DNA from: Mesorhizobium sp. M4B.F.Ca.ET.058.02.1.1
GTDB taxonomy: Bacteria > Pseudomonadota > Alphaproteobacteria > Rhizobiales > Rhizobiaceae
Reading direction: 5' to 3'
Assembly (NCBI RefSeq): GCF_003952505.1
Contig: NZ_CP034450.1
Span: forward strand, 6,389,616 to 6,453,615
Length of the DNA: 64,000 nucleotides
Below the pieces are notes generated by a model. The model was given only the letters and a program-made list of their open reading frames with translations, searched no databases and was not told the DNA's origin. Shown piece after piece: positions 18,010 through 27,155 of this stretch. The position numbers were made by a program, and so were the translations under genes. Position 1 is the stretch's first letter, and each line of letters opens with the position of its first letter.

Positions 18010-18735
18010 ATGGCCCGTCGCGCGACGCAGCTCACTCCCGGCACCGGCAAGCCGGAGCAGATCGCGACGGTTTTGGAGCACGAAATCCGCTCCGGCGTGC
18101 TCGGCTTCGGCGACCGTCTGCAGAGCGAGAACGAACTCGTCCAGCGCTTCTCCGTCAGCCGCAACACGGTCCGAAAAGGTCTCGAGGAATTGTCGAGTCG
18201 CGGCCTGATCACCACCAGGGTCGGCATCGGTTCCTTCGTCACCTTTGACGGCATGCCGGTCGATGATGCCGTCGGCTGGTCGCGCGCGCTTGCCAATGCG
18301 GGCGCCAATGCCGAGACGCGCACGCTGCGGCTCGAAGTCATCGAGGACGCGGAGCTTGCGGCGAAGCTTGGCGTCGACAATCCAGCTTTCATCGCTGTCG
18401 ATCGCGTCCGCACGAATGCAAATGACGGCCATGCGATCTCGATCGAGCGTAGCCGCCTGCCGCTGTCGCCCGAACTGGAAGACGTGCCGCTGCGCGGCCT
18501 GCGCGAAGGCTCGCTGCACCAGACGCTGCGCGGAGCAGGGCTCGTTCCCGACCATGGCGAGGAGTGGGTCGACATCGAGATGCTGAGCGCCGCCGATGCC
18601 GCCATCCTCGACTGCGCGCCGGGCACGCCCTTCCTGCGGACGCGGCGCCTGACTCGCGCCGCCGATGGTCGACCGATCGAATTCGTCACTAGCCTGCTCA
18701 ACCCGGCGCATTTCGCCCTTCATCTGGAGTTTTGA
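18010..18735 (+). CDS. GntR-family regulator, HutC subfamily (YegW-like)
   Basis: 241 residues. N-terminal winged HTH (QIATVLEHEIRSGVLGFGDR, SENELVQRFSVSRNTVRKGL) and a C-terminal UTRA ligand domain ending with IEFVTSLLNPAHFALHLEF. HutC-type proteins usually repress a catabolic operon until a small-molecule inducer binds. It is the first gene of a seven-gene rightward operon with an ADP-ribosylglycohydrolase, a PfkB kinase and an ABC importer; the next gene starts one base after its stop codon. In E. coli, yegW holds the same place beside yegU and yegV. Confidence 0.85.
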   Translation: MARRATQLTPGTGKPEQIATVLEHEIRSGVLGFGDRLQSENELVQRFSVSRNTVRKGLEELSSRGLITTRVGIGSFVTFDGMPVDDAVGWSRALANAGANAETRTLRLEVIEDAELAAKLGVDNPAFIAVDRVRTNANDGHAISIERSRLPLSPELEDVPLRGLREGSLHQTLRGAGLVPDHGEEWVDIEMLSAADAAILDCAPGTPFLRTRRLTRAADGRPIEFVTSLLNPAHFALHLEF

Positions 18736-18736
18736 G

Positions 18737-19774
18737 ATGACGGATGCGGCCGGGGTGATCGACCGGGCAATGGGCGCGCTGATCGGCGGCGCGCTTGGCG
18801 ACGCGCTGGGCATGCCGACGCAGCTTCTGTCGCCCGGCCGCATCGCCGAACTCTATGGCCATGTCGACGACTTCGTCGCGCCCGTCGACGATCATCCGGT
18901 GTCGAAGGGCCTTGAAGCCGGCACGATCACCGACGACACGGAACAGGCGCTGCTGCTTGGCCGCATCCTGGTCGGGTCCGGCGACCGTTTCGACCACACG
19001 CGCTGGGTCAATGCGCTGCTCGACTGGGAGCGCGGGGTCAAGGCACGCGGCAGCTACGACTTGCTCGGCCCGTCGACCAAGCGCGCCATCGACGCCATCA
19101 ATGACGGCGTGCCGCCCGAGGAGGCCGGCAGCGGCGGCGACACCAACGGCGCGGCCATGCGCATCGCGCCAGTTGGCATCATGATGCCGCCGGAGCCACT
19201 CGACACGCTGGTTGCGAAGGTCGCGGAAACCTGCCGGGCCACGCACAATACCTCGATTGCCATAGCTTCGGCCGCCGCGGTCGCTTTGGCGGTCAGCGGC
19301 GGAGTCTCGGGCGCCGACTGGCGCGCGGCTTCCGAGCGCGCCGTGACGGCGGCACGGTTGGGGGCAACGCTCGGGCATTGGGTCACCGGCGGCGACATCG
19401 CCGCGCGGATCGCCTGGGCGCAGGACCTTGTGCGCGGCAAGGCCGAGAAAGAGGCGATCCGGCTGATCGTCGATCTGGTCGGCACCGGCGTCGCCAGCCA
19501 GGAATCGGTTCCGGCGGCGTTCGCCGTGCTGGAGGTCGCCGAAGGCGATCCGTGGCGAGCGGCTGTCATCAGCGCCAATCTCGGAGGCGACACCGACACG
19601 ATCGGCGCCATTGCCGCCAGCATGGCAGGTGCCTCTGCCGGCCTGTCGCGCCTGCCGCAGGATCGCATTGCCAAATTGCACGGCATCGATCTCGCCGCGG
19701 TTCGCGCGCTGGCAGACGATCTCATCGCGGCACGCGAGGCAAAGATCCGCTCCGGCAAGGAGGCTGCAGCATGA
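18737..19774 (+). CDS. ADP-ribosylglycohydrolase-family protein (YegU-like)
   Basis: 345 residues from ATG at 18737. The fold signature is intact: AMGALIGGALGDALG near the N-terminus, metal ligands in TITDDTEQ (Asp66, Asp67) and in NLGGDTDTIGAI (residues about 281-288). The family cleaves N-glycosidic bonds to ADP-ribose or related ribosyl groups with two Mg ions. The partner PfkB kinase and importer suggest that here it hydrolyses an imported N-riboside or N-glycoside rather than reversing protein modification. That role is inference. It overlaps the kinase gene by 4 bases (ATGA). Confidence 0.88.
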   Translation: MTDAAGVIDRAMGALIGGALGDALGMPTQLLSPGRIAELYGHVDDFVAPVDDHPVSKGLEAGTITDDTEQALLLGRILVGSGDRFDHTRWVNALLDWERGVKARGSYDLLGPSTKRAIDAINDGVPPEEAGSGGDTNGAAMRIAPVGIMMPPEPLDTLVAKVAETCRATHNTSIAIASAAAVALAVSGGVSGADWRAASERAVTAARLGATLGHWVTGGDIAARIAWAQDLVRGKAEKEAIRLIVDLVGTGVASQESVPAAFAVLEVAEGDPWRAAVISANLGGDTDTIGAIAASMAGASAGLSRLPQDRIAKLHGIDLAAVRALADDLIAAREAKIRSGKEAAA

Positions 19775-20745
19775 GTGGACGGCTGGTCCATGTCGGCAGC
19801 GCCGTGGTGGACTATGTCTACCGCATCGACGCCTTGCCGGCGCCCGGCACGGAAAAGACCGCGTCGAGCTACGCGCGGGTCGCCGGTGGCGGCTTCAACA
19901 TGATGGTCGCGGCGAGGCGCACCGGCATGAGGGTGGTGTTCGGCGGTCAGCTCGGTACCGGGCCGGACGGCGATTTCCTGCGCGCGGCTTTTGCCGCCGA
20001 AGGCATCTCGACGCTGACGCCGCCGTCGCCGTTGATGGACAGCGGCAATTGCGTTGCCATGATCAGCGGCGACGCCGAGCGCACCTTCGTCTCCTGGCCG
20101 GGCGCCGAGAGCCGGCTCACGCGCGACATGATGGCTTCCGTCCAAGTCCAAGCCGGTGATTGGGTTTTTACCTCCGGCTACACGCTGAGCTATCCCGGCA
20201 GCCGCGACGCGCTCGCCGACTGGATCGAGGCGCTGCCGGCGGAAGTCCCCTTCGTCTTCGATCCAACGCCGGTGATAGCCGAGATTCCGCGCCCGATCCT
20301 GGACAGGGTGCTGGCGCGCACGACCTGGCTGAGCTGCAACACCAGCGAGGCGGCCGCGATCGCAGGTTCGGGCGACGCGCAGACTGCAGCCATCCGGCTG
20401 CTCGCCGACCATTGCCGGAAAGCGGCAGGCGTCGTCATCCGCGACGGCGCGCAAGGCTGCCTAGTGCGGCTGGCCGATGGCGGTACGCGCGCCATACCCG
20501 GTTTCGAGGTCGCCGCCGTCGACACCAACGGCGCCGGCGATGCTCATATCGGCGCCTTCGTCAGCGGCCTGTCGCGCGACATGCCGCCATGCGAGGCAGC
20601 GCGCTATGCCAATGCGGCGGCAGCGATTTCCGTTACCCGCCATGGCGGATCGTCGGCGCCGACCGACGCCGAAACCCAGGAATTCCTTGCCCGGCGCGTT
20701 CAAGCGGCGATCGCGCAGGACCGGGAACGACAGGCCACAACTTAA
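19771..20745 (+). CDS. PfkB-family carbohydrate kinase (YegV-like)
   Basis: 324 residues from ATG at 19771, overlapping the hydrolase stop. Ribokinase fold with the N-terminal GGGFNMMVAARR segment and the C-terminal anion-hole motif DTNGAGDAHIGAF, with catalytic Asp257. Members phosphorylate ribose, nucleosides or other sugars. Placed directly after a glycohydrolase, it most likely phosphorylates the sugar (or nucleoside) that the hydrolase releases. The sugar is unknown. The gap to the next gene, 39 bases, contains a weak hairpin (GCCCG/CGGGC) and an AGGAAAG ribosome-binding site. Confidence 0.88.
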   Translation: MSGRLVHVGSAVVDYVYRIDALPAPGTEKTASSYARVAGGGFNMMVAARRTGMRVVFGGQLGTGPDGDFLRAAFAAEGISTLTPPSPLMDSGNCVAMISGDAERTFVSWPGAESRLTRDMMASVQVQAGDWVFTSGYTLSYPGSRDALADWIEALPAEVPFVFDPTPVIAEIPRPILDRVLARTTWLSCNTSEAAAIAGSGDAQTAAIRLLADHCRKAAGVVIRDGAQGCLVRLADGGTRAIPGFEVAAVDTNGAGDAHIGAFVSGLSRDMPPCEAARYANAAAAISVTRHGGSSAPTDAETQEFLARRVQAAIAQDRERQATT

Positions 20746-20784
20746 CAAGCCCGCCAACCGGGCAAACAATGAGAGGAAAGAAAC

Positions 20785-21846
20785 ATGCGCATGCCCAGAC
20801 TGACCGCTTTTTTGACGGCCACGGCCGTCTTCGCTTCAGCATTCACGCTTGCCGCCAATGCCGGTGAAGTGCATGTGCTCAACTGGAAGGGTTACGGCGC
20901 CGACGAGCCATGGGCGATCGCCGCCTTCGAGAAGGCGACCGGCAACAAGGTGGTCAACGACTTCTTCAACTCCGAACAGGAGATGCTGACCAAGCTCAGG
21001 ACCAATCCCGGCCTTTACGACGTCGTCATGATCAATGCCGCCTTCAACGATCAGGCGATGGCCGGCAAGCTGATCCAGCCGATCGACGTCTCGAAGCTTG
21101 CCAACTACGCCGACATCAGCAAGGACAAGGCCGGCTCGCCGATGCTCAACCATGACGGCAAGGTCTATGGCGTGCCGTGGGTCTGGGGGCTGACCGCCTT
21201 AGCGATCAACGAGAAGTCGTTCCCCAAGCCGCCGACGAGCATCGCCGAAATGTGGGATCCGGCGCATAAGGGCCGCGTCATCATCCGTGATGACGCCGTC
21301 GAGGCGGTGCAGTTCGGCGCCATCGCCAGTGGCCAGAACATCAACGACATCAAGGACATGGAAGCGGTCAAGGCGAAGCTCACCTCGCTGATGCCGCAGA
21401 TCAAGACGTTCTGGAGCTCGGAGAACGACTGGAACCAGATGGTCGCCTCCAACCAGATCGACATCGGCACCTACTGGAGCGGCTCGGCCGATCGCGCCAA
21501 GACGCATTTCAAGCTGCCGGTCTCGCTGGTTATCCCGCAGGAAGGCGCCGTCGCCTGGCTCGATGCCTTCTCGATCCCGGCAGGCTCCAAGAATGTCGAG
21601 GGCGCCGAAGCCTTCATCAACTACATGATCGACCCGAAATTCTACGTCGAATGGGTCACCAAGGTCGGCGCGCCGGTATCGGCCAACACCAAAGCGGTCG
21701 AGGCGCTGCCCGAGGATGCCTTCAACCGCAAGGTCATGGGCGATCCGGACGTCGCCAAGCGCATCCAGTTCCAGGCGCCGGTCACCGACGAGCAGCGCGA
21801 GAAGTACCTGGCGCTCTGGCAGGAGCTGAAGGTCAACGTGAAGTAG
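20785..21846 (+). CDS. ABC transporter substrate-binding protein, PotD/polyamine type
   Basis: 353 residues with a Sec signal peptide ending near LAANAGEV. The mature protein follows the PotD-like type II fold (VHVLNWKGYGADEPWAIAAF, VPWVWGLTALAINEKSF, DNA-free regions with GTYWSGSADRAK). PotD-type proteins bind polyamines, but the same family binds opines, phosphonates and other charged small molecules. Cotranscription with a glycohydrolase and a sugar kinase argues for a charged, ribosylated or glycosylated ligand. The specificity is open. Confidence 0.88.
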   Translation: MRMPRLTAFLTATAVFASAFTLAANAGEVHVLNWKGYGADEPWAIAAFEKATGNKVVNDFFNSEQEMLTKLRTNPGLYDVVMINAAFNDQAMAGKLIQPIDVSKLANYADISKDKAGSPMLNHDGKVYGVPWVWGLTALAINEKSFPKPPTSIAEMWDPAHKGRVIIRDDAVEAVQFGAIASGQNINDIKDMEAVKAKLTSLMPQIKTFWSSENDWNQMVASNQIDIGTYWSGSADRAKTHFKLPVSLVIPQEGAVAWLDAFSIPAGSKNVEGAEAFINYMIDPKFYVEWVTKVGAPVSANTKAVEALPEDAFNRKVMGDPDVAKRIQFQAPVTDEQREKYLALWQELKVNVK

Positions 21847-21875
21847 TCGGCGTCTTTCGCGGAGGAGAGGCATCC

Positions 21876-22745
21876 ATGGCTGACCAGCATGCGATCGGTT
21901 CGCGGCGCGGACTGAGGCCGGCCCTGCCGCTTCTCCTGCCGGCCTATCTGTGGCTGACGGTGGCGATCTTCCTGCCGCTGTCGGCCATGGTCTTCTTCTC
22001 CTTCATGACCGACCTGCCGCTGGCCGGGAAGGAATGGGCGTTCACGCTCGACAACTACGCGGCCTTCTTCTCGCAGAGCCTTTATCTGACGCTTCTGCTT
22101 GCCTCGCTGCGGCTCGGCCTCGAGGTCACCCTTTGGTGCGTGGTGATCGGCTATCCGGCGGCCTATGTGCTGGCCAAGGTGCTGAAGGGACGCAGCCGGG
22201 AGGCGATCTTCCTGCTCGTCATCCTGCCGTTCTGGTCGAACGGGCTGGTGCGCATCTTCTCCTGGGCGATGGTGCTGCGCGAGGGCGGCATCCTCGACAC
22301 GGCACTCAACGCCGTGCTGCCGTTCAAGATCAACATCGATCTCATGTATTCCTACCCGGCCGTGATCATCGGCCTGGTGCACTCCTACGTGCCCTACATG
22401 GTGCTGACCTGCTACCTGACGCTGCAGGCGATCGACGATTCGCTGATCGAGGCCGGCCGCTCGCTCGGCGCCTCGCGGCGGCAGGTTCTTTGGCGCGTCA
22501 TCATACCGCTGTCGATGCCGGGCCTGATCGCGGGGGCGGCGCTGATTTTCGTGCCGGTCGTCGGCTCCTTCATGGAGCCGCGTATTCTCGGCGGCCGCAC
22601 CGGCACTTTCTACGGCACCGTCATCGAGGACCAGTTCGTCGCCGTCTTCAACTGGCCGCTGGGCGCCGCTCTCTCGTTCATCCTGCTTGCCGTCGTGCTG
22701 GTGATCCTGGCGGTGGCCTCGCCAGTGTTGCGGAGGGCCGCCTGA
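21876..22745 (+). CDS. ABC transporter permease, PotB type
   Basis: 289 residues from ATG at 21876 behind GGAGGAGAGG. Six hydrophobic segments, with the EAA loop SLIEAGRSLGASRRQVLWRV. It forms the inner-membrane channel with the PotC-like partner. The stop overlaps the next start (TGATG). It precedes PotC- and PotA-like genes, in the order binding protein, PotB, PotC, PotA. Confidence 0.9.
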   Translation: MADQHAIGSRRGLRPALPLLLPAYLWLTVAIFLPLSAMVFFSFMTDLPLAGKEWAFTLDNYAAFFSQSLYLTLLLASLRLGLEVTLWCVVIGYPAAYVLAKVLKGRSREAIFLLVILPFWSNGLVRIFSWAMVLREGGILDTALNAVLPFKINIDLMYSYPAVIIGLVHSYVPYMVLTCYLTLQAIDDSLIEAGRSLGASRRQVLWRVIIPLSMPGLIAGAALIFVPVVGSFMEPRILGGRTGTFYGTVIEDQFVAVFNWPLGAALSFILLAVVLVILAVASPVLRRAA

Positions 22746-23533
22746 TGGCGACGACGCGCATCCTCGAATGGCTAGGGCGGTTCTACATCGTCCTGCTGCT
22801 CGCCTTCCTCTATTTGCCGATCATCATCATGGCGCTGATGTCGTTCAACGCCTCGCCCTTCTACCAATTGCCACTCGAGTGGACGACGGACTGGTACGCC
22901 TCGCTCTGGCAGAACGACCAGCTGATCGCGGCGACCTGGAACAGCATCGAGATCGCGGTCATCACCACCATCATCTCGACCGTGCTCGGCTCGGCCGCCT
23001 CGCTGGCGCTCTACCGCTACGAATTCCCGGGTAAGAAGGCCCTGCAGGCGCTGCTCTTCCCGCCGATCGCCATTCCGTGGCTGATCACAGGCACGGCGAT
23101 GCTGATCTTCTTCTTCGGCATCGGCATCGGCCGCGGGCTGGTAGCCATCCTGCTCGGCCATGTCGCGCTGGCGCTGCCTTATGTGATCGTCGTTGTCTCG
23201 GCCCGGTTGCAGACCTTCGCGCCGGAGCTGGAGGAGGCGGCGCGCTCGCTCGGCGCCAACCAGTGGCAGGTGACGAACCGCGTCACGTTGCCCTGGATCA
23301 TGCCCGGCGTCATCGCCGGCGGTCTGTTCGCTTTCGCCGTTTCGTTTGACCAGTTCGTGGTCTCGTACTTCCTGTCGACCCCAGGCCAGACGACGCTGCC
23401 GGTCGAGATCTATGCGGCGATCCGCAAAGGCTTCACGCCCGAGATCAACGCGGTGTCGACGATCATCATCGTGGTGTCGATGGCGCTGATGCTGCTCACG
23501 GCGCGCTTCTTCAAATTCGGCGGAGAGAAATAA
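22745..23533 (+). CDS. ABC transporter permease, PotC type
   Basis: 262 residues from ATG at 22745; longer in-frame starts read shadow sequence inside the PotB gene. It has an N-terminal membrane helix followed by LPIIIMALMSFNASPF and the EAA loop ELEEAARSLGANQWQVTNRV. It partners the PotB-like permease. It overlaps the ATPase gene by one base (TAATG). Confidence 0.9.
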   Translation: MATTRILEWLGRFYIVLLLAFLYLPIIIMALMSFNASPFYQLPLEWTTDWYASLWQNDQLIAATWNSIEIAVITTIISTVLGSAASLALYRYEFPGKKALQALLFPPIAIPWLITGTAMLIFFFGIGIGRGLVAILLGHVALALPYVIVVVSARLQTFAPELEEAARSLGANQWQVTNRVTLPWIMPGVIAGGLFAFAVSFDQFVVSYFLSTPGQTTLPVEIYAAIRKGFTPEINAVSTIIIVVSMALMLLTARFFKFGGEK

Positions 23534-24600
23534 TGGCAGGCGTCCAGGTAGCGAACGTCTCGCGCAGTTTCGGCGCGCACAAGGCGCTGGATGACGTCTC
23601 GATCGATTTCGCCGACGGCGGCTTCTACGCACTGCTCGGGCCGTCCGGCAGCGGCAAGACCACCCTATTGCGCCAGATCGCCGGCTTCGATTTTCCGGAC
23701 AGCGGCCGCATCGCCATCGGCGGCGAGAGCGTCGGGCGCGTGCCGGTCGAGAAGCGTCGCATCGGCATGGTGTTCCAGAACTATGCGCTGTTTCCCAATA
23801 TGAGCGTCGCCGACAATGTCGCCTTCGGCTTGTCGGTGCGCGGCGAGGCCAAGGCGACGATCGCCGCCGAGGTGCAGCGGGCACTCGACCTCGTCCAACT
23901 TGGCAAGCTGGGTGCCCGCCGGCCGCACCAGCTTTCCGGCGGCCAGCGCCAGCGCGTGGCGTTGGCGCGCGCCATCGTCACCAAGCCGCGCGTGCTGTTG
24001 CTCGACGAGCCGCTCGGCGCGCTCGACAAGGCGCTGCGCGTCGACATGCAGATCGAGTTGAAGCGCATCCAGCGCGAGATCGGCATCACCACCATCTTCG
24101 TCACGCACGACCAGGAAGAGGCGCTGACGATGAGCGACCGCATCGGCATCCTGCGCGACGGCAGGCTGGTGCAGGAGGGGCCGCCGGAAGAGATCTACGA
24201 CCGACCGCAAAGCGAGTTCGCCGCGACCTTCCTCGGCGACGCCAACATCTTTCGCGGCGCCGCGACCGGCACCGGCATCCGGCTGCCCGACGGCACGGCG
24301 ATCAATGCCTCGTCAGGGCCCTCGTTGGCAGCCGGCGCCAAGGCGAGTTGCGCGGTGCGGCCGGAGCGGATCCAGATCTCGACCGGCGCGGCGAAGCCCG
24401 ATGCGGACAATGCCAATACGCTCAAGGGACAGGTGTCCAAGCGTATCTTCGCCGGCAACAACAGCACCTATTTTGTCGACCGCGACGGCCGGACGCTGAA
24501 GGTGATCGTGCAGAACACCGGCGCCGAAAGGTTGGCTGAAGGTCAGCCGGTGGTGCTCAGCTGGTCGCCGGACAGTACTGTGCTGATCGCGGCGGGCTAA
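23533..24600 (+). CDS. ABC transporter ATPase, PotA type
   Basis: 355 residues. Walker A GPSGSGKTT near residue 38, signature LSGGQRQRVALARAI, Walker B LLLDEPLGALDK and switch His in VTHDQEEA, followed by a C-terminal TOBE domain (KGQVSKRIFAGNNSTYFVD). It energises the PotDBC-like importer. It is the last gene of the operon. 75 bases separate it from the convergent ammonia-lyase-family gene; I see no strong terminator there. Confidence 0.9.
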   Translation: MAGVQVANVSRSFGAHKALDDVSIDFADGGFYALLGPSGSGKTTLLRQIAGFDFPDSGRIAIGGESVGRVPVEKRRIGMVFQNYALFPNMSVADNVAFGLSVRGEAKATIAAEVQRALDLVQLGKLGARRPHQLSGGQRQRVALARAIVTKPRVLLLDEPLGALDKALRVDMQIELKRIQREIGITTIFVTHDQEEALTMSDRIGILRDGRLVQEGPPEEIYDRPQSEFAATFLGDANIFRGAATGTGIRLPDGTAINASSGPSLAAGAKASCAVRPERIQISTGAAKPDADNANTLKGQVSKRIFAGNNSTYFVDRDGRTLKVIVQNTGAERLAEGQPVVLSWSPDSTVLIAAG

Positions 24601-24675: not shown

Positions 24676-26157
24676 TCAGGCCCGCCACGAGCCGTCGGCG
24701 AGCGCGGCGTAGAGCACGTTGGCGTTGGCTCCGAGCGGCCTGTCCTCCTTGAGCGCCGGGACATGCGCGCGGACAGAAGCGTGGATGACGGCGGTTGCCG
24801 GCGCCAGCGTGATCCCCTCACGCAGGTCGACGGCTTGGGCCGCCGCCATCAGTTCCATGGCGATCAGGCGTCGCCACAGTACCATCATGTCGGCGCATTT
24901 CGAAACCGCCAGAAGGGTTTGCGTTGCGTGATCCTCCACGCCTTCCGAGACCGGCAGGTAATCGAGCATCACGGGGTTGGCCTTATGGCGGATCGCGGCC
25001 AGGATCGCCGTAACGGTCTTCTGCAGAGGCACGAAGCCGGCGGAGGCGCCGCCGAGCGGCGACAGGTATTTGGGCAGGCTGTTGCGGCCCGAGCCGGTGA
25101 GCTGGATGAAGCGAGCGGCGCAAGCCCCCGCGCATTGCGCGATTGCCAGGCCAAGCGTCTCGAAGGCGAGCGCGAGTGACGCGGTGTGAAAGTTGCCGGT
25201 CGACAGCACCAACGCGTCTTCGACCAGCACCAGCGGATTGTCGGCGGCGGCGTTGAGCTCGATCTCGACCGCCAGCCTGGCATGATCGATCGCCTGGATC
25301 AGCGCCCCGTGGATCGAGGGCATGCAGCGGATCGACAGCGGATCCTGCAAGCTCGTCTGCGTCGTTTCATGATCGCGCGCCAGCAGGTCGCGCAGCGTCC
25401 TTGCCGCCAGCAATTGGCAGGCCGCGGGCCGCGCGACATGCAGGCGCGGATCGAGAATGGTGCGGTTGGCCGCGAGCGCTTCCATGGTCAGCGCGCCGGC
25501 CTGCTGCTGCTGTTCCATCGCAGACAGCGCGTCGACAAGTGCCAGTGCGCCGGCGCCGGTGGAGACCGCCGAAGCATTGATCAGCGACAAGCCGTCCTTC
25601 GGCGCCAGGCTGACAGGAGGGAGGCGCGCCATCATAAGCGCCTTGGCCGAAGGCATGCGCCGGCTTTGGTAATCGGCGTCGCCTTCGCCGATCAGCGTGT
25701 GGGCGATCGCCGTCATCATCACCAGGTCGCCGGCGCCGATCGAGCCGAGCGCCGGCATCACCGGATGCACGCCCGCGTTCAGCATTTCGACCAGCGCGCT
25801 GAACACATGCGGCGACAGGCCCGAGCCGCCGGCTGAAAGCATGGCGATACGAGCAAACATCGCTGCCCGCACGAGCTGGATGGGCAACGCGTCACCCACG
25901 GCGGCGCCGCGCCCATCGAGAAGCTGGCGCTGGAAGGCGCTGGCGTCGCCCTCGACTGCGGTGCCGAGATTGGCGCCGAGCCCGGTGTTCAGGCCGTAGA
26001 TCTGCTGGCCGGCGGCGGCAGCTTCATCGAGGACTTTGCGCGCCTTGGCCAGGTGTTCCATGACGGAGGGCGTGACCTCCACCTTGGCCGCATTGCGCGC
26101 GGCAGCGGCGACATCCTCGATGCTGACGCCGGCGCCGGTGAGGACGAGCGGGGTCAT
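24676..26157 (-). CDS. Histidine/aromatic ammonia-lyase family protein lacking the MIO serine
   Basis: 493 residues from ATG at 26157, which overlaps the cyclodeaminase stop (ATGA). The fold of the HAL/PAL/TAL family is complete: YGLNTGLG at 54-61, Asn194 in LSLINAS, GNFH at 321-324 and EGVEDH at 405-410. Yet the prosthetic-group triad Ala-Ser-Gly is broken: residues 138-145 read GSIGAGDL where catalytic members have GASGDL, one residue shorter and without Ser. The loop normally reading QDxYSxRC is QDPLSIRC (271-278), so the catalytic Tyr is Leu. No frameshift is visible. It is therefore unlikely to be a normal MIO ammonia-lyase, and histidine ammonia-lyase is a family label only. Confidence 0.8.
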   Translation of the reverse strand: MTPLVLTGAGVSIEDVAAAARNAAKVEVTPSVMEHLAKARKVLDEAAAAGQQIYGLNTGLGANLGTAVEGDASAFQRQLLDGRGAAVGDALPIQLVRAAMFARIAMLSAGGSGLSPHVFSALVEMLNAGVHPVMPALGSIGAGDLVMMTAIAHTLIGEGDADYQSRRMPSAKALMMARLPPVSLAPKDGLSLINASAVSTGAGALALVDALSAMEQQQQAGALTMEALAANRTILDPRLHVARPAACQLLAARTLRDLLARDHETTQTSLQDPLSIRCMPSIHGALIQAIDHARLAVEIELNAAADNPLVLVEDALVLSTGNFHTASLALAFETLGLAIAQCAGACAARFIQLTGSGRNSLPKYLSPLGGASAGFVPLQKTVTAILAAIRHKANPVMLDYLPVSEGVEDHATQTLLAVSKCADMMVLWRRLIAMELMAAAQAVDLREGITLAPATAVIHASVRAHVPALKEDRPLGANANVLYAALADGSWRA

Positions 26158-27155
26158 GCGAAACGCAGCCTCTGGCCGACGCCTTGCGTGCCGGCCTTGG
26201 CCAGCATCGCCTTGCCGAGCGCGATGTCTGAGAGCGACAGGCCGCGATGCCAGAACAGGATGGTCTCGTCGTCGCCCTGGCGGCCAGGCTTCAGGCCGGC
26301 GGCGATCTGGCCGAGTTCGGCATGCAACGTCGCCTCGCTCAGCCGCCCGGTCTCGACATGGGCGCGCAGCGAGCCGAACTTGCCGCTCTTGCACTGGCCC
26401 CAATCGTCGACGACGATCTTCCCCATGATATCGGTCAAGGACAGCTCCACCGCGCTCATCGTGCCATAGGGCACCACCAGCGCGCCCGGCTTGATCCATT
26501 CGGTCTTGAGCAGCGGCTGCGGTTCGTTGAGCCGCGAGGCCTCGACGACGATGTCGGCTCCGTCGACGCAGCTTTTCCAGTCGGCGACCGCGGTGACTTT
26601 CTTGCCGAGGTCGGCCGACAGTTTCGCCGCGAAAGCATCGCGGCTTTCCGGCCGGCGCGAATGGACGCGGATCTCGTCGAAGTCGAAAAGATGGTCGAGC
26701 AGGCGGACGTTCCAGTAGGCGGTGCCGCGCGCGCCAATATGGCCGAGCACCTTGGCTGTCTTCTTCGCCAGGTGCTTGGCGCCGATGGCGGTGACGGCGC
26801 CGGTGCGCATGTCGGTGATGACGGTGGCGTCGAGGATGGCGCGCGGCGTGCCGGTGCGTGGATCGAACAAATTGAGGATGCCGAATTCCGAAGGCAGGCC
26901 GTGCAGATAGTTGTCGACGTAGTCGCCGACGATCTTGACGCCGGCCGCGTCGAGCGGCGCCACATAGCCGCGCAAGACATTGAAATGGCCGTGGAATGAC
27001 GGGTCCGGTTCAAGATGGACGCGCGGTTCGATCACCGTCTGGCCCTTGCCTTGCGCGACAAGGCCGGCCTCGACCGCACCGATGATCTCGGCATCGGTCA
27101 TCGCCAGCGCTTCGATATCGAGAGCGTTGAGATAGTCGATATAGATGGGCTTCAT
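26154..27155 (-). CDS. Ornithine cyclodeaminase / mu-crystallin family protein
   Basis: 333 residues from ATG at 27155 (ribosome-binding site AGGGGAAG); an in-frame start at 27245 is rejected as untypical. Family motifs are VKIVGDYVDN, ITDMRTGAVTAIGAKHLA and the NAD-binding segment LGHIGARGTAYWNV. Members include ornithine cyclodeaminase, alanine dehydrogenase, ketimine reductase and opine-type dehydrogenases, so the reaction is open. It is the first gene of a two-gene operon with the MIO-less lyase-family protein, facing the Yeg-like ABC operon and divergent from a DHA2 efflux pump. Confidence 0.85.
   Translation of the reverse strand: MKPIYIDYLNALDIEALAMTDAEIIGAVEAGLVAQGKGQTVIEPRVHLEPDPSFHGHFNVLRGYVAPLDAAGVKIVGDYVDNYLHGLPSEFGILNLFDPRTGTPRAILDATVITDMRTGAVTAIGAKHLAKKTAKVLGHIGARGTAYWNVRLLDHLFDFDEIRVHSRRPESRDAFAAKLSADLGKKVTAVADWKSCVDGADIVVEASRLNEPQPLLKTEWIKPGALVVPYGTMSAVELSLTDIMGKIVVDDWGQCKSGKFGSLRAHVETGRLSEATLHAELGQIAAGLKPGRQGDDETILFWHRGLSLSDIALGKAMLAKAGTQGVGQRLRFA

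Follow-up and report, generated by a model that had tools for sequence, protein, structure and literature searches.

A minus-strand gene in a 64,000-nucleotide stretch of Mesorhizobium sp. M4B.F.Ca.ET.058.02.1.1 (contig NZ_CP034450.1, positions 6,389,616 to 6,453,615; hereafter the window) encodes a lyase of the histidine/phenylalanine ammonia-lyase (HAL/PAL) fold that lacks the serine needed for the methylidene-imidazolone (MIO) cofactor. We consider it, with a probability of about 0.68, to be a MIO-free 1,2-elimination lyase of the ergothionase type that acts on an aromatic or imidazole amino-acid betaine other than ergothioneine. Lyase and conserved upstream partner, an oxidoreductase-like protein of the ornithine-cyclodeaminase (OCD) family, probably break down a quaternary-ammonium amino acid. 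The double loss of the MIO serine and of the equivalent of Tyr280 marks a chemistry that is already known, the 1,2-elimination of a tertiary amine, and the lyase belongs to a known, little-studied branch of cofactor-free lyases. What is new is its own branch within them: a separate clade, with other ring-pocket residues and a fixed OCD partner. The substrate, and not the loss of the cofactor, may thus be the new element.

An active site of the ergothionase type

The open reading frame (24676..26157, minus strand) starts with ATG and encodes 493 amino acids without an internal stop, in agreement with the intact frame described, with no strand given, in the first-pass annotation of this DNA. Profile, structure and predicted-fold comparisons placed the product in the HAL/PAL fold (PF00221; 424.9 bits versus a gathering score of 27.3). 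It matched eight NCBIfam ammonia-lyase or aminomutase models, every one below its cut-off; the hutH model gave 358.9 bits versus a cut-off of 539.15. HutH of P. putida (1gkj, 1gkm and 1b8f) shares the fold and most active-site columns, but its MIO, Tyr280, Val386 and His83 are all missing from the window lyase. In the alignment, the column of the MIO serine (Ser143) was a gap within residues 138-145 (GSIGAGDL; 25723..25746, minus strand), and the Tyr280 column was occupied by Leu274 within residues 271-278 (QDPLSIRC; 25324..25347, minus strand). The HutH row of the 30-row alignment is the Y280F mutant; the tyrosine was seen in the 1gkm row. Lys380 (25018..25020, minus strand) stood where HutH has Val386, and Arg83 (25909..25911, minus strand) in the His83 column.

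Loss of the serine by a one-residue gap had been noted before, and it was borne out by the alignment. The accompanying claim, that the catalytic tyrosine had been removed, holds for the equivalent of Tyr280, but not for the loop tyrosine: Tyr54 of the YGLNTGLG landmark (25996..25998, minus strand; Tyr53 in HutH) is kept and is the probable catalytic base. In HutH, Tyr53 is presumably the loop residue that takes the β proton, and Arg283 the residue that binds the carboxylate. As their counterparts Tyr54 and Arg277 are kept, proton abstraction and carboxylate binding would be retained, and the catalytic tyrosine has not simply been lost. Exactly two groups were said to be missing. Both are, but a residue was also gained and had been overlooked, namely, Lys380, which ergothionase shares (as K383 of the chain as printed) and which the aligned MIO enzymes lack.

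Records of proteins of this kind, close homologues included, carry the names histidine ammonia-lyase or HAL/PAL/TAL family ammonia-lyase. These names, together with the PF00221 match, would imply an ordinary histidine ammonia-lyase whose MIO is formed in another way. This is extremely improbable: the loop contains no serine, the hutH score stays below its cut-off, and the same genome encodes a separate HutH with GSVGASGDL. On these grounds, an active histidine ammonia-lyase was ruled out.

Conservation was assessed in three homologue groups, each comprising the best 120 rows of one search (121 with the query for the Salinicola/Rhizobium group) rather than a whole family. Among the 120 listed closest homologues of the window lyase (P0002-P0121), the gap in the serine column and the leucine in the Tyr280 column were present in all 120, and every homologue carrying an organism name was from Mesorhizobium. 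In the best 80 of 379 loci (77 named Mesorhizobium and three unclassified), the gene had no stop, and its median pairwise ratio of nonsynonymous to synonymous substitution rates (dN/dS) versus the window was 0.20. The gene is under purifying selection. The fixed signature, the lack of stops and the low ratio together rule out a pseudogene as well as a sequencing error that, once corrected, would restore the serine, so the earlier view that this is not decay is upheld. A match was found in 78 of 99 sampled genomes of the genus (E ≤1e-100; own genome counted), in 21 of 247 at the family level (1e-90; own genome and three from the genus count included), and in 4 of 289 at the class level (1e-100; own genome included).

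Tyr54, Gln271, Arg277, Glu408 and Asp409 did not vary in any row of any of the three groups. Because two groups important in MIO enzymes are lost, the protein might be regarded as a noncatalytic binding protein or pseudoenzyme in which the scaffold was kept. This is very unlikely in view of the invariance, in the window group, of Tyr54, Arg277, Glu408, Gln271 and the ergothionase-type Lys380, of the purifying selection, and of the metabolic gene contexts of the relatives described below.

The top sequence match among solved structures was ergothionase from Treponema denticola (6s7j, E 7e-69; also 6s7q), which was the best structural match as well. Its printed sequence reads SSIGEGDI, without a modified residue, and QDPLSFRC; the T. 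acidophilum HAL row, in contrast, has an X at the MIO position. Ergothionase is described as lacking MIO in PMC13405746, which cites Maurer 2019. Ergothionase and the window lyase share the fold, the loop gap, the leucine for Tyr280 and the added lysine, and both keep the equivalents of HutH Tyr53, Arg283 and Glu414. In the 30-row alignment, the one-residue loop gap occurred in 27 rows, including ergothionase and the window lyase; all 27 had lysine in the HutH Val386 column and either leucine (23) or isoleucine (4) in the Tyr280 column. The Val386 column held valine in P. putida HutH and in the HutH of the own genome (L066), and tyrosine in another homologue (L064). In the homologue groups, the lysine was present in 120/120 rows of the window group, 115/120 of the ergothionase group (five asparagines) and 121/121 of the Salinicola/Rhizobium group. 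Since both losses are those of a MIO-free trimethylamine-lyase, the new reaction or binding function proposed in the first-pass annotation is not needed to account for them.

A second type of HAL homologue without the MIO triad (GSxGYLTH) was observed in the own genome (L064, G000:C1:4458157-4459560) and in L158 (12978-14540), where it stands among hut genes. It has leucine in the Tyr280 column and tyrosine, instead of lysine, in the Lys380 column.

Tertiary amines, trimethylamine among them, leave readily, so an electrophilic MIO is not required. In the proposed mechanism, Arg277 would hold the substrate carboxylate, Tyr54 would take the β proton, and Lys380, with Glu408 nearby, would activate the ring side. 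The tertiary amine and a 2-enoate (aryl-acrylate) would then leave, and a conserved redox reaction of the pathway, with an imine or amine as its substrate, would fall to the OCD-family partner.

A separate branch with its own pocket and a fixed partner

Columns 83, 195, 330 and 411 are those that line the ring pocket in HutH. In the window group, they were Arg, Asn, His and Glu in 120/120 rows each (Arg83, Asn194, His324 and Glu405 of the window lyase). In the ergothionase group, they were His (120/120), Ser (112/120), Glu (118/120) and Gly (120/120), that is, His83, Ser194, Glu327 and Gly408 in the numbering of ergothionase itself; column 382 differed between the two enzymes, too. The Salinicola/Rhizobium group had Arg (121/121), Val (116/121), Asp (121/121) and Asp (121/121). 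A FastTree phylogeny was computed without the loop columns from six, 14 and 10 proteins of the groups, the loci and three MIO enzymes. Ergothionases formed one branch (support 1.0) and the proteobacterial proteins another (0.86), the two being joined at 0.945; L064 and P0123, which have another loop type, branched next. The window lyase was thus placed outside the ergothionase clade among the sampled proteins.

That the window lyase is ergothionase proper, converting ergothioneine to thiourocanate and trimethylamine, would agree with the best match, in sequence and in structure, and with the identical catalytic signature. It is, however, quite unlikely: identity in the structural alignment is only 30%, the clade is a different one, and the four pocket residues are exchanged throughout the window group, and the ergothionases largely keep theirs. 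Furthermore, no thiourocanate hydratase above the family cut-off was found in the genome, although no control genome exceeded it either; the one urocanase-type gene, located beside hut genes, reached 681 bits versus a cut-off of 930.

The OCD-family gene (26154..27155, minus strand; 333 amino acids) lies upstream of the lyase gene, and the two genes overlap by four bases (ATGA), the TGA of the first being interlaced with the ATG of the second; both are probably made from one message. Solved relatives of the product comprise 15 distinct sequences at E 0.001 (1omo, E 1.1e-39), with archaeal alanine dehydrogenase, pyrroline-2-carboxylate reductase, SbnB and mu-crystallin at the top and iminosuccinate reductase lower down. 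A lysine of archaeal alanine dehydrogenase aligned with that of GVKIVG in the OCD protein, whereas the aspartate of the GAD motif, the catalytic residue of the family, aligned with a methionine in this alignment.

The OCD gene directly preceded the lyase gene in all 80 of the best loci and in 16 of 17 further loci of the window clade (L043-L051, L053-L057, L154, L156 and L157; L042 was left out as apparently the same locus as M. soli L143 of the 80), the exception being L056. It was present in the stretches of all nine sister-clade loci viewed (L052, L155, L158, L163-L167 and L174), in L164 on the opposite strand and apart. Around L058-L063 it had no match, but three of these loci (L061-L063) are cut off by a nearby contig end. 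Compared with the window, the lyase dropped to 42-45% identity in loci where the OCD protein was still 68-78% identical. A PhnD-like gene was also present in all nine sister-clade loci. It was seen to follow the OCD gene (L165:14514-15323 and L155:15612-16430), and since the L165 copy seems, by eye, to have no signal peptide, it may serve in something other than transport. No paper on a lyase-OCD pair was found in a literature search that most subscription papers lay outside, so its absence is unproven, and the passages of PMC9002059 examined contain nothing on MIO-free relatives.

EutC-, BhcD- and SbnB-type enzymes, members of the same OCD family, pair with eliminating or condensing enzymes. 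On this model, the leaving group could be other than trimethylamine, and the OCD enzyme would process the released amine or imine. The four-base overlap with a partner more conserved than the lyase, the imine reductases and SbnB among its solved relatives, and the retention of an OCD gene 68-88% identical to that of the window next to lyases with different pocket residues all argue for this reading. Nevertheless, it is unlikely, as quaternary-amine transporters adjoin the relatives and, by general chemistry, primary and secondary ammonium groups leave poorly unless MIO assists.

Gene neighborhoods of the relatives and candidate substrates

Among the 17 further window-clade loci, 12 had an OpuAC-type binding protein with two permeases and an ATPase in their stretch, and 14 had two luciferase-like flavin monooxygenases, one of which scored above the NtaA/DmoA cut-off in L051 and L046. 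Solved relatives of the OpuAC-type protein include binding proteins of the choline, betaine, acetylcholine/nicotine-sensor and ergothioneine (EgtU) kinds. According to PMC9732360, EgtU falls within the quaternary-amine class that has an aromatic cage. In five of the nine sister loci, R. johnstonii pRL12 among them, the lyase gene was preceded by genes for a CoA-transferase, a short-chain dehydrogenase/reductase (SDR), a MaoC protein and a HutC-type regulator. Genes for a CoA-transferase, an SDR-type dehydrogenase and MaoC also precede the lyase gene of Paracoccus pAMI4, whose product is 70% identical to the lyase of L059; no OCD gene was listed there. The cluster of L158 contained HutF, HutU, HutI and HutG above their cut-offs, and BCCT-, OsmF- and OCD-like genes below theirs. 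L158 is probably Salinicola, because P0244, 99% identical, is named S. peritrichatus; a match at 1e-80 occurred in 2 of 151 genomes of its family (L158 included). The cluster (L158:3905-19547) comprises hut genes, BCCT-like, OpuAC-type and OCD genes and two HAL homologues without MIO; none with Ala-Ser-Gly was seen in this stretch.

An acrylate product would account for the CoA genes as well as for the hut genes. The hut genes seen in L158 speak for hercynine (histidine betaine), Arg83 together with the monooxygenases for ergothioneine sulfonate, and the CoA genes for other betaines. Agrobacterium radiobacter, a relative of rhizobia, reportedly has an ergothioneine sulfonate catabolic lyase that eliminates trimethylamine (Yan 2022, in the reference list of PMC13405746), and a sulfonate would be well matched by arginine in column 83. 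The substrate may be hercynine, ergothioneine sulfonate or an aromatic betaine from plants or fungi; the data do not choose among them.

Several observations weigh against a betaine lyase of this kind. Neither the window nor the best 80 loci gave a match to an OpuAC gene or a monooxygenase pair next to the lyase gene, and no OpuAC relative was detected in the own genome at E 1e-20, in a search that had no positive control; the betaine inference thus rests on relatives. L058-L060, located in the proteobacterial branch, carry His83, so Arg83 is no clean divider. The partner gene is under stronger constraint than the lyase gene (median pairwise dN/dS versus the window 0.09 in 79 usable loci, compared with 0.20), and plain elimination of trimethylamine from a betaine leaves it without an evident task. 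That no betaine transporter was found beside the Mesorhizobium pair or in the genome, and that the OCD protein has no evident job, are the reasons why confidence stays below 0.7.

Beyond assignment to betaine elimination, a wider proposal is put forward tentatively, at slightly less than even odds: MIO-free lyase and OCD oxidoreductase would form a two-enzyme rhizobial module that degrades an undescribed plant or fungal aromatic betaine, the scaffold having radiated after loss of MIO into several betaine specificities, of which ergothionase is one branch, and the OCD step going beyond the ergothioneine pathway.

Genomic surroundings and database names

Convergent with the lyase gene, GntR-, ADP-ribosylglycohydrolase- and PfkB-like genes and Pot-type ABC genes (names by eye) occupy 18010-24600, with no gene between the lyase and ABC ATPase genes. 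The Pot-type operon was not kept as a partner, because it is convergent and its permease and binding-protein genes (>50% identity) occurred in only 20 of the 80 loci, compared over ∼10 kb on each side (some less). In L040 and L041, the ATPase gene lies ∼6.5 kb from the lyase gene. KPHMT-, ferredoxin-, desaturase-, isomerase- and Gfo-like genes (by eye) were present in 67-74 of the 80 loci, depending on the gene (L067-L146); they adjoin the lyase gene in L040 and L041, and none was matched in L067. The own genome also has a luciferase-like monooxygenase pair at 3.73 Mb (L172, G000:C1:3730975-3733139), 66% and 41% identical to the second such protein of L154. As its neighbors look, by eye, like purine-catabolism genes, it was not counted as part of the lyase pathway.

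MIO-less proteins are annotated hutH or histidine ammonia-lyase in NC_008378.1, NZ_CP035002.1, NZ_CP104991.1 and other records, several with the GO term histidine catabolic process. Such names obscure a family of lyases that work without the cofactor and probably cleave betaines. With the relatives set among genes for quaternary-amine uptake, enoate-CoA genes and hut genes, betaine catabolism in nodule bacteria can be tested directly. Together, the known and the new branch would show how a lyase can do without MIO, given a good enough leaving group.
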